Part shown: piece by piece, positions 8,505-37,439 of the stretch
Layout of the letters: the number at the start of each line of letters is the position of its first letter
Numbering within the stretch: the stretch's first letter is position 1
Assembly (NCBI RefSeq): GCF_024498175.1
Contig: NZ_CP101823.1
Span: 3,168,987 to 3,232,986 of the forward strand
DNA from: Haloplanus salinarum
GTDB taxonomy: Archaea > Halobacteriota > Halobacteria > Halobacteriales > Haloferacaceae
Direction of reading: 5' to 3'
Length of the DNA: 64,000 nt
Position numbers and translations under genes: made by a program
Notes under the pieces: model-generated
What the model was told of the DNA's origin: nothing
The model's input: the letters and a program-made list of their open reading frames with translations, nothing else
The model's database searches: none

Positions 8505-9368
8505 TCAGTACCGCGACGGCATGTACGCCATGCCGAGCAGCAGGATGGCCGTCGCGAAACTCACGATGGAGACGCCCCAGAGGCCGTTGACGTGGTCGTG
8601 ATACGTGTCGATTTCGGTGGTCTGCCGTTGGTACACGCCGTAGTCACTCTCCAGGACGAGCGTACTGTTGTCCGGGAAGTACGCGAAGTACTGCTGGCCG
8701 TTCAGCGTGACGTTGGCCTCGTTGCCGACGTCGACCCTGTTGGTCCGGGGAGCTGTCCAGGCGAGCGTCGCGCCGTCGCTGGATACGCTGGCGACCGTCG
8801 TCGTGTTCCCTTGGAACTGGAGGGTGTCACCCTCGCCGTACTGGGTCGAGGCGGGTTCCGGGAAGTACTCGTTCGCCGGCGTCAGCGATCGGTTGTCGCC
8901 GCTCTCGCGGACGACGTGTTCGGTGCCGTTGACCGTGACGAGTTCGTTCCGCACGGTCGGATCGTCCTGAAGGATCGCGCTCCGGTTGATCCGCTCCTGC
9001 AGTCTGAACGCGGCCGGGTCGTCGGCGTCCTCGACGAGGACCTGGTACTCCTCGCCGTCGTATGTGACGTTGGCTTCGTGTTCCCACGTCTGGGTGTGGC
9101 GTGCCGAATCGTTGGTCCAGGAGACCTGTCCGGACCGCGTGACTTCGGCGCCGCCACCGTGGCCGCCGCCACCGCCCGACATCTCGGCCGAAATCGTCGT
9201 GACGGTGTACGTTCGGTCGTCGACCGAGAACTCGTCACCCTGGGAGAGTCTGTGATCGGGATTGTCGAACTCGACCGTCGGCGCGGTGGCCGTGGCAATC
9301 ACCGAGTACGACGCCGCGCCGAGGATGATAAAGAACGCGACGTAGATGGCCGCAGCGCGTCGTTGCAT
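8505..9368 (-). CDS. predicted secreted/membrane protein with N- and C-terminal helices
   Basis: 287 residues. An N-terminal membrane helix (about 7-28) and a C-terminal one (about 261-281) flank an external beta-rich, Asn/Thr-rich region with several NxT/S sequons. The region includes a Gly/His-rich patch (SGGGGGHGGG near 64-73) that could bind metal. Two related motifs (EYQVLVED and QQYFAYFPDN) hint at an internal duplication. It is not a family I can name. It lies just beyond the oxidase operon and its promoter region holds the large palindrome at 9405-9488. Confidence 0.7.
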   Translation of the reverse strand: MQRRAAAIYVAFFIILGAASYSVIATATAPTVEFDNPDHRLSQGDEFSVDDRTYTVTTISAEMSGGGGGHGGGAEVTRSGQVSWTNDSARHTQTWEHEANVTYDGEEYQVLVEDADDPAAFRLQERINRSAILQDDPTVRNELVTVNGTEHVVRESGDNRSLTPANEYFPEPASTQYGEGDTLQFQGNTTTVASVSSDGATLAWTAPRTNRVDVGNEANVTLNGQQYFAYFPDNSTLVLESDYGVYQRQTTEIDTYHDHVNGLWGVSIVSFATAILLLGMAYMPSRY

Positions 9369-9404: not shown

Positions 9405-9488
9405 TATAGTAGCCTTTGTAAGTCATTGCACACCTGATCGCAGGACAGCGGGCGATCAGGTGTACAACCAGTTCCAAACGCTACTATA
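9405..9488. repeat. 84-bp imperfect palindrome in a divergent-looking intergenic region
   Basis: Two 37-base arms (9405-9441 and 9452-9488) match at 31 of 37 positions when one is reverse-complemented, around a 10-base centre. The outer arm is AT-rich (TATAGTAGC) and the inner arm is a perfect 12-base match ACACCTGATCGC with GCGATCAGGTGT. It lies between the start of the 287-residue membrane protein and the stop of the 58-residue gene. The structure could be a bidirectional regulatory site, a miniature mobile element or a structured RNA; the sequence does not decide. Confidence 0.8.
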
Positions 9489-9502: not shown

Positions 9503-9679
9503 TCACCGAGTGGGTGTCTCGTCGGCCTCGACCAACTGTAGCGCCTGCCGGAGGTGGAACCGCGTCTCGTGGCAGTCGGCGGCTTCGAGTGCCGCCCGTA
9601 GCTGTCGCTCGACGGTCGTTCCCGTCGTGGCTTCGGCCGCGCCCATTCCCCCGCTTTCGGCCGTGGATCGGGAGTTCAT
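9503..9679 (-). CDS. 58-residue conserved-looking small protein
   Basis: Translates as MNSRSTAESGGMGAAEAT... with a helical acidic second half (VERQLRAALEAADCHETRFH, LRQALQLVEAD). An AT-rich box (CCTAAAC on the minus strand, about 9703-9709) sits about 27 bases before the ATG, as for a leaderless gene. Heptad-like spacing of Leu and Ala suggests a small helical, maybe dimerising protein. No catalytic motif is visible and I do not recognise a family. Its 3' end lies 15 bases from the large palindrome. Confidence 0.55.
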   Translation of the reverse strand: MNSRSTAESGGMGAAEATTGTTVERQLRAALEAADCHETRFHLRQALQLVEADETPTR

Positions 9680-13368: not shown

Positions 13369-13719
13369 ATGGACTCGGGAATAATTAATCGTGATCGACC
13401 CTCCGCGCTGGACGTCTCCCTGCTCGGCCTCATCGCCACCATCGTCGGCGGGTACGGTCGATCCATCTCCGTGCCGGCCGACACTGCTCCCAACCTCATC
13501 CGGTTTTTCTCGGTGTCCCCGGATCGGACCTATCCGGCGGTGATGCCCCAGGACAAGGCGTTGCTCCTCCTGAACGACCCGGCGACGGGCGAGGCCACCC
13601 GGCAGGCCGCCGACGCGGGCGGATCGCTCCACGGCGTCTGGACGCTCGTGGCCTTCCTCGGGTTGCTCCTCCTGTTCGCAGGGCCGGCCATCGTGTGGCT
13701 GAACCGCGGGGACGATTGA
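13369..13719 (+). CDS. small membrane protein, function unknown
   Basis: 116 residues. Hydrophobic stretches at about 16-29 and 89-109 flank a soluble loop, so it is probably an integral membrane protein with the loop outside. The start is set by the ATG 27 bases after a TATA box. It is divergent from hemE. The stop codon TGA is the first three bases of an 86-bp palindromic repeat. I do not recognise a family; no metal or heme motif is evident. Confidence 0.6.
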   Translation: MDSGIINRDRPSALDVSLLGLIATIVGGYGRSISVPADTAPNLIRFFSVSPDRTYPAVMPQDKALLLLNDPATGEATRQAADAGGSLHGVWTLVAFLGLLLLFAGPAIVWLNRGDD

Positions 13720-13802
13720 TACTGTTTATTGTAAATCGTTACCGGTGGTTCGCCGGACCGCTCTGGCGAACCACCGGTAAACAGTTACAATAATCCGTAT
13801 GA
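13717..13802. repeat. dispersed 86-bp palindromic repeat, copy 1
   Basis: Two 41-base arms (13717-13757 and 13762-13802) match at 34 positions when folded. They have an AT-rich outer part (TTATTGTAA) and a GC-rich inner part (TACCGGTGGTTCGCC). The left end supplies the stop codon TGA of the upstream gene, and the HxlR gene's stop is 13 bases beyond the right end. It lies between two convergent genes. Copies at 28510, 37354 and 39631 share the sequence. Confidence 0.9.
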
Positions 13803-23851: not shown

Positions 23852-24615
23852 CGCCGACCGTCGTCGCCCACCGCGGGTTCGCCGGCGTCAACCCGGAGAA
23901 CACCGTCGGCGCCGTCCGGGCGGCCGCCGACCGGGCCGCCCTCGTCGAGGTCGACGTCGTCGCCTGCGCCGACGGCACGCCGGTCGTCTTCCACGACGAC
24001 CGACTCGACGACGGCGACGGGAGTCGCGGAATCACCGACGGCGCGGGCGCGGTCCGGAACCTCCACCCGTCGACGGTGACGGCCGCGGGGGTGCTGGCGA
24101 GCGGCGAGACGGTCCCGTCCCTCGACCGCCTGCTCGCCGAGACGGACGCACCGCTCAACGTCGAACTCAAGCGGCCGCGGGCGGCGACGGTCCGTCGGGG
24201 GGCGCTCCCGTTCGCCGAGCGCGCGGCCGCCCGCGAGCGCTGGCAGCCGTTCGTCGATCGGGTGCTTTCGGCGCTCGACGACCGGCACGTCCTCCTCTCC
24301 TCGTTCTCCGAGGGAGCGCTCGCGGCCGTCCGCGAGCGGACGGCGGACGTCGAACTGGCGCCGATCTGTCGGGAGTTCGGGACCGGTCGCGAACTCGCGG
24401 CGCGCCACGACGCCGACGCGATCCACCCCTCGCTCCCGGCGCTCCGGGCGGCCGACCCCGACGCCGTCGCGGCCACCCGCGACGCCGGCCGGACGATCAA
24501 CGCCTGGACGGTGCGGACGTGGGTCGAGGCGCGGGACGCAGTGCGGGCCGGCGCCGACGGGCTGGTCGCCGACTATCCGGGGCTGGAGCGGTGGCTGGAG
24601 GAATCGAGCGGCTGA
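23848..24615 (+). CDS. glycerophosphodiester phosphodiesterase
   Basis: 255 residues from a GTG start that overlaps the peptidase stop. The hallmark VAHRGFAGVNPENTVGAVRAA with the catalytic His, the metal site EVDVVACADGTPVVFHDDRLDD, and the C-terminal TINAWTVRT are all present. It hydrolyses glycerophosphodiesters to glycerol 3-phosphate (or, in archaea, possibly the 1-phosphate) and an alcohol. No signal peptide is seen, so it is cytoplasmic. Its 3' end overlaps the predicted 3' end of the RNase P RNA on the other strand. Confidence 0.93.
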   Translation: MTPTVVAHRGFAGVNPENTVGAVRAAADRAALVEVDVVACADGTPVVFHDDRLDDGDGSRGITDGAGAVRNLHPSTVTAAGVLASGETVPSLDRLLAETDAPLNVELKRPRAATVRRGALPFAERAAARERWQPFVDRVLSALDDRHVLLSSFSEGALAAVRERTADVELAPICREFGTGRELAARHDADAIHPSLPALRAADPDAVAATRDAGRTINAWTVRTWVEARDAVRAGADGLVADYPGLERWLEESSG

Positions 24616-25069
24616 GAGGAGTAAGCCCCCTTCTGTTCGTCCCGGCATTCGGCTGAGCGTCCACCTCCGCGTCCGGACTACCTTGACGAGGCGGACTTGC
24701 ACCGGTGAGGATTCGCCGTTCCATCCGTTCTCGGCCGTCGCGGGACCCGACGGGTCCCGTGGGGCGTCCGGTGGAACCGTACGCCGTCGGCGAGACGCGA
24801 AGCGCCTCGAAGGCGCGCGGCGGACGCCGCTCGCAGCTCCGTGGTCCCTTCGCGATCACGCTACCCTCGGTGGGTCAACTCCCCTCGCTCGCGCTCGGGT
24901 TCGCACACCTCATCGGTCGGGCCGAGTGGTCTCGTTTCTGTTCCAGAGCCAGCCGTCTCCGACTCCGGGCTTGCGCCCGGTCACCCGTCCGGACGGTGGG
25001 GGGACTTTCCTCGTGTTCGCACACGGGGGCCGGGCTCTCTCTGCCACGTTCACCTACTCCCGCCGCTCG
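24605..25069 (-). ncRNA. rnpB: RNase P RNA (archaeal type A)
   Basis: Read on the minus strand, this protein-free interval has the universal RNase P motifs: GAGGAAAGTCC near 25010-25020 at the 5' side, and ACAGAAGGGGGCTTA near 24623-24638 at the 3' side. The ends pair as helix P1: CGAGCGGC with GCCGCTCG, plus GGAGTA with TACTCC. The RNA cleaves the 5' leader from tRNA precursors together with its protein subunits. Ends are placed at P1 and may be off by 10-20 bases. With these bounds the 3' strand of P1 lies inside the last codons of the convergent phosphodiesterase gene. Confidence 0.92.
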
Positions 25070-28509: not shown

Positions 28510-28596
28510 TCGGACGGAGTATTGTAACTGTTTCCCGGTGGTTCGCCAGGACAGTCCGGCGAACCACCGGTACGGACTCACATAATCGGGGTATCA
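28510..28596. repeat. dispersed 86-bp palindromic repeat, copy 2 (reverse orientation)
   Basis: The inner palindrome CCGGTGGTTCGCCAGGACAG and its partner CCGGCGAACCACCGG are intact. The outer ATTGTAACTG is kept on the left, while the right outer arm has diverged (CATAATCGGGGTATCA). Read backwards it begins TGATAC like copies 1 and 3, and that TGA is the stop codon of the surface-protein gene at 28594. It lies between the two paralogous protease-like genes. Confidence 0.88.
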
Positions 28597-37353: not shown

Positions 37354-37439
37354 TGATACTGTTTATTGTACGTCAGTACCGGTGGTTCGCCGGACTGTCC
37401 TGGCGAACCACCGATGAACAGTTACAATAATCCGTATGA
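37354..37439. repeat. dispersed 86-bp palindromic repeat, copy 3
   Basis: The same length and ends as copy 1: TGATACTGTTTATTGTA on the left, GTTACAATAATCCGTATGA on the right, and the inner ACCGGTGGTTCGCCGGAC palindrome. It differs from copy 1 mainly in the six bases around position 37372, in the centre and near 37413-37415. The pth2 stop codon (37441-37443) begins two bases past its right end. The left end lies in the upstream region of the NicO gene. Confidence 0.9.

Follow-up and report, generated by a model that had tools for sequence, protein, structure and literature searches.

A very short, fully hairpin-shaped mobile element of haloarchaea, probably moved by an IS630-type transposase

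The palindrome and its setting

What is a long palindrome doing just upstream of a haloarchaeal gene? The palindrome occupies positions 9405 to 9488 of the window, the 64,000-nucleotide stretch of Haloplanus salinarum DNA analyzed here. An earlier note, made from the letters alone, had counted 31 paired positions in its 37-position arms and proposed three options: a bidirectional control site, a miniature element or a structured RNA. An inverted-repeat search returned exactly this structure, with arms of 37 nt each (9405–9441 and 9452–9488) that are 84% (31/37) complementary around a 10-nt loop and form the terminal inverted repeats of an 84-bp element. Folded as DNA, the palindrome has z = −5.1, with 0 of 200 shuffles equally stable; as RNA, it reaches −38.1 kcal/mol (z = −7.5). 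No Rfam family matched it in a search of the window, in which RNase P was the sole match; an archaeal RNase P RNA gene lies at 24610–25045 on the minus strand.

The unit proper is 80 bp long, and a duplicated TA on either side brings it to 84 bp (Table 1). It sits in an intergenic gap of 134 bp, ~36 bp upstream of the start codon of the gene at 8505–9368. A TATA-like TTATAC, ~25 bp before that start codon on the minus strand, is intact beside the element, and the sequence upstream of it, in minus-strand reading, is altered by the 84 bp. Judged from its sequence and position, TTATAC would be the putative core promoter, with the element just upstream in this lineage only, and we propose that any effect of the element on the gene is incidental.

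Table 1. Coordinates of the 84-bp element, its sister-family copies and the neighboring genes in the window
Feature	Position	Strand	Evidence
Core of the element, almost certainly a MITE; 80 bp, near-complete hairpin, TAGTAGCC...GCTACTA	9407–9486	+	Empty sites in G073 and G070; covariance-model match at 9405–9488, 93 bits
Left copy of target-site TA	9405–9406	.	One TA in empty sites, ATTAC-TA-ACTG
Right copy of target-site TA	9487–9488	.	One TA in empty sites
Left arm, like the right end (RE) of ISNpe3-group IS630	9405–9441	+	Inverted-repeat search, end comparison
Right arm, like the left end (LE) of ISNpe3-group IS630	9452–9488	-	Inverted-repeat search, end comparison
Sister-family MITE, 80-bp core, TGA on both sides	13719–13798	+	Covariance model, flank reading
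Sister-family MITE, 80-bp core, TGA on both sides	37356–37435	+	Covariance model, flank reading
Degenerate sister-family copy, weak match	28520–28584	-	Covariance model, E 9e-4
58-aa ORF flanking the gap	9503–9679	-	
287-aa ORF whose start borders the gap	8505–9368	-	
Start of the ferrochelatase gene	9938		

Empty sites and target duplication

Is the palindrome a fixed part of this promoter region? In two congeners, G073 and G070, the promoter region is the same but lacks the element: the sequences that border it in the window abut at the orthologous site, with a 2-bp overlap, and both genomes read ...CGTATAACGATTACTAACTGACGACG... where the window reads ...GATTAC-TA-[TAGTAGCC...GCTACTA]-TA-ACTGACG.... 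The step is from ATTAC-TA-ACTG (empty, a single TA) to ATTAC-TA-[80 bp]-TA-ACTG (filled). Because the empty sites hold one TA, the 80-bp core was inserted at TA and duplicated it, so that TA insertion with TA duplication, as in the IS630/Tc1-mariner superfamily, is seen at this very locus. Further empty sites were sought at a 17-kb region of the window's genome that carries two copies, and the region was not syntenic in the congeners.

Since the element is absent at two orthologous promoters, we reject a conserved control site for the gene at 8505–9368, and the empty sites in these close relatives mark the palindrome as mobile DNA. Of the three options originally proposed, the miniature element is favored by dispersed copies, exact empty sites and TA duplication, the control site falls with its absence from G073 and G070, and a structured RNA with a function of its own at 9405–9488 is unproven.

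A dispersed family with signs of recent movement

How widespread is the element? We gathered copies by sequence search, starting from the window's own genome (G000), one contig of 3.45 Mb. A 104-bp query found many further copies there; across the taxonomic family, 56 of 170 genomes gave a match (E≤0.1). A covariance model built from 26 copies matched 49 of the 170 genomes, in 13 of 28 genera (E≤1e-5); its counts per genome, up to 26 among the matches listed, are to be read as "at least" and sister-family copies may be among them. End scans and individual loci together give ~18 recognizable copies in G000. Named plasmids also carry the element—those of Haloferax mediterranei (where copies of the 84-bp element are many, with 17 places on pHME505), Haloarcula hispanica, Natrialba magadii, Halobellus, Natrinema, Halorubrum, Haloplanus and others—and span more than one haloarchaeal family; most plasmid records listed have no annotated gene at the matched stretch. 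Matching coordinates between searches identify the surveyed genera g9, g19 and g21 as Haloferax, Halobellus and Halorubrum. Neither phage records nor, for the end pattern, viral contigs gave a match, and a phage search with the ferrochelatase gave no useful result.

The earlier note had staked its claim on copies in relatives and on pairing that persists among orthologous loci, and the outcome is mixed. Copies in relatives are many and pairing is kept between them; at the orthologous locus, the element is absent from the two relatives that could be read.

The copies are uniform in design. In nearly all of 40 aligned copies the length, both TAs included, is exactly 84 bp; a C precedes the left TA in 34 of the 40 and a G follows the right TA in 23. 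An end scan of another congener, G075, found 28 copies, all complete and with ends exactly 84 bp apart. Five G000 copies at unrelated sites are letter-identical over 84 bp, and ~13 G075 copies have equal covariance-model scores, both of which indicate recent movement. One copy (G000, C1:2180317) interrupts an alpha/beta-hydrolase ORF whose downstream part matches Pfam Abhydrolase_1 (E 9e-28).

The hairpin itself persists as copies diverge. In a set of 25 distinct copies, both partners have changed in 12 of the 35 pairs, a count that exceeds every shuffle and slid control, in a test in which related sequences may exceed the shuffle control without structure. Such changes keep the palindrome, and could reflect either selection or palindrome self-correction, which are indistinguishable here; a mobile hairpin might acquire them through cruciform repair or gene conversion.

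A sister family of the same size

The window holds a second palindrome family, the "86-bp family" of the earlier note, said there to share the plan of the 84-bp palindrome in another sequence. That likeness is real. A covariance model built solely from the 84-bp family matches 13718–13801 (E 3e-9) and 37355–37438 (E 3.5e-6), with a weak match to a degenerate copy at 28520–28584; both families have an 80-bp core with the internal motifs TTGnAAGTCaT / TTGnAACTGtTT. Taken together, the window copies and 20 further G000 copies have a core of 80 bp (one is 79 and one 81), and 21 of these 23 carry the same 3-bp repeat on either side, TGA (18) or TCA (3). At G000 C1:1583846–1584012, a sister element is nested in a copy of the 84-bp family (167 bp in total, TGA duplicated), which supplies its own filled/empty comparison: ATTGA-AACTG to ATTGA-[80 bp]-TGA-AACTG. 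The "86-bp family" is a sister MITE with an 80-bp core and a 3-bp TGA/TCA duplication. In place of the sister element, the gap in G070 that is orthologous to 13718–13801 contains a degenerate GATTG-type palindrome of the 84-bp family; two related elements have occupied one intergenic spot.

Resemblance to IS630 elements

Which transposons do these ends resemble? Elements with DDE_3 transposases in G075 sort into classes A–D. Class A is about 1,059 bp long, with an HTH frame and a DDE frame, and close relatives of the class carry ISNpe3 / ISNamo16-type IS630 annotations. Both of its termini read TATAGTA, its flanks are mostly C-TA...TA-G, and its ends differ internally (RE TATAGTAGacgTTAGAAaTAATTgCTCAC, LE TATAGTAacCGTTAGAAcTTTctgCtC; 75 distinct pairs). 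Beyond this common terminus, the left arm of the palindrome (TATAGTAGCgTTTGnAAGTCaTcgCaCAC) fits the class A RE best and the right arm (TATAGTAGCGTTTGcAACTGtTTgCACA) the LE; past the terminal 8–9 bp, the inner-position fit is modest (p 0.012 and 0.03). The 84-bp element and ISNpe3-group IS630 have in common the terminal 8 bp and the arm-specific motifs, and the two IS630 ends differ at the internal positions at which the two arms differ, but no element with the exact ends was found. The conserved mismatches inside the palindrome would be accounted for by the difference between two transposon ends. The group departs from the element in its size and coding frames, in forming no hairpin and in reading TTAGAA where the element reads TTTGnAA.

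The target of IS630 is generally TA. Classes B, C and D in G075, which are IS630-like, have TGA/TCA 3-bp repeats as flanks. The sister arms fit class C best (p about 0.001), and each of the two same-size MITE families seems to have its counterpart in an IS630 subgroup of its own, the two subgroups differing in the target that they duplicate.

The search for an autonomous partner

We looked for the driving transposase by several routes, none of which found an autonomous element with exact TATAGTAGCGTTTG ends. Such ends accompanied no partner found with an ISNpe3-group DDE profile in the genome contigs and 392 genomes of the order, no element found by an end-plus-start-codon pattern in 170 genomes or by end-only scans of G075 and G000, and none of the diverged IS630 loci on plasmids. 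In a DDE_3 search of the genus, G000, a one-contig genome, had no match at all; among 23 copy-rich genomes, several had none.

Stand-alone IS630-type HTH proteins of about 142–148 aa occur in G000 (C1:668430–668849) and in three genomes of genus g10. Their match is to the HTH portion of IS630 transposases (E about 1e-35), no DDE domain lies close by, and their distribution does not track the MITE, being missing from other copy-rich genomes. They are possibly domesticated DNA-binding proteins.

Weighing the explanations

That the palindrome is a MITE seems to us almost beyond doubt, because copies of fixed length are dispersed, empty sites reveal TA duplication, identical copies occupy unrelated sites, and nested and intragenic insertions occur; its short, non-coding, multicopy nature is borne out by the ~18 copies in G000 and the 49 of 170 genomes. 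An IS630-type transposase is its probable mover: class A has the TATAGTA terminus, the C-TA...TA-G flanks and the arm-specific motifs, and the sister family parallels classes B–D. Against this assignment, the searches found no autonomous element with the exact ends, G000 and several copy-rich genomes gave no DDE_3 match, the fit to IS630 ends is modest past the terminal 8–9 bp, and compensatory changes keep the hairpin beyond the apparent need of transposase binding alone. Taken whole, the reading that we consider likely is of an 80-bp, whole-hairpin MITE that inserts at TA and is moved by an IS630/Tc1-mariner transposase supplied in trans. Such a transposase would bind two different arm motifs and then move the 80-bp element by cut and paste, and the hairpin would probably have arisen by fusion of both ends of an IS630-like element.

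Could something else move the same MITE? An orphan or domesticated RAYT/REP-like transposase, or a TA-duplicating transposase of another family, is a lesser possibility, to which the five identical copies in a one-contig genome free of DDE_3 matches, the further copy-rich genomes without DDE_3, and the stand-alone HTH protein in G000 and genus g10 lend some weight. However, IS630 fits the end sequence, the target flanks and the TA duplication; the HTH protein has no catalytic domain and is missing from other copy-rich genomes; and transposases are easily lost, or may be encoded on a plasmid that the assembly lacks. It is more doubtful still that two sister families of 80-bp hairpins, one at TA and one at TGA/TCA and both maintained across haloarchaea, owe their movement to an orphan or domesticated transposase that recognizes the hairpin with its two arms, which would make them a REP/RAYT-like system in archaea; this idea rests on recent movement in genomes without a detectable IS630 catalytic domain. 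We regard as improbable a functional hairpin—a regulatory DNA site, processed RNA or bidirectional terminator—held by selection, with dispersal secondary. The pairs changed on both sides and the position close to a start codon would suit it, whereas its absence from the orthologous promoter in G073 and G070, the copy that disrupts the alpha/beta-hydrolase gene, the lack of a T-rich tail at the palindrome and of an Rfam family, and the capacity of palindromes to self-correct speak otherwise. PATEs, which have near-terminal palindromes, abound in haloarchaea (PMC3119063), so an IS200/IS605-type remnant with terminal palindromes, moving by single-strand transposition, comes to mind. PATEs, however, have neither terminal inverted repeats nor target duplication (PMC3119063) and the element has both; its full inverted repeats and TA duplication contradict a PATE or IS605-type identity, which we hold to be scarcely credible.

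Known systems and implications

How does the family compare with elements already described? Correia elements of Neisseria are a long-known bacterial MITE related to IS630, whose TIRs start with TATAG and whose insertion site is TA. The likeness is one of description: in Neisseria they are about 100–200 bp long, and they are not full-length hairpins. REP elements with RAYT transposases are likewise dispersed palindromes, 20–40 bp long (PMC3733652), whose mover need not flank them. Also haloarchaeal are the MITEs and SMRs of Haloquadratum walsbyi, which like our element are short, non-coding and multicopy and have inverted repeats (PMC3119063). SMRs were reported to lack target duplications and to have no relation to known transposons (PMC3119063), whereas our element has a TA duplication; SMR-B HqIRS41 is also 80 bp long (PMC3119063), a likeness by length when it is set beside the element by description. 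Among the best 15 of 104 chance-type literature matches to the end sequences, no paper was relevant, and none was found on IS630, haloarchaea and MITEs together. No description of this family turned up in the literature covered, mostly openly readable papers. We read the palindrome as a MITE of a new family, very short and hairpin-shaped over its whole length, within a kind of element already known.

An unexplained palindrome has become a defined mobile element with exact ends, a target and empty sites, and the "86-bp family" is explained with it. Copies may be easily misread as operators, terminators or RNAs, because most of the plasmid records listed have no annotated gene at the match. Two sister families keep to one fixed 80-bp design, the missing transposase is a question that is approachable in Haloferax mediterranei, and the presence or absence of copies among relatives is a usable marker of recent insertion.
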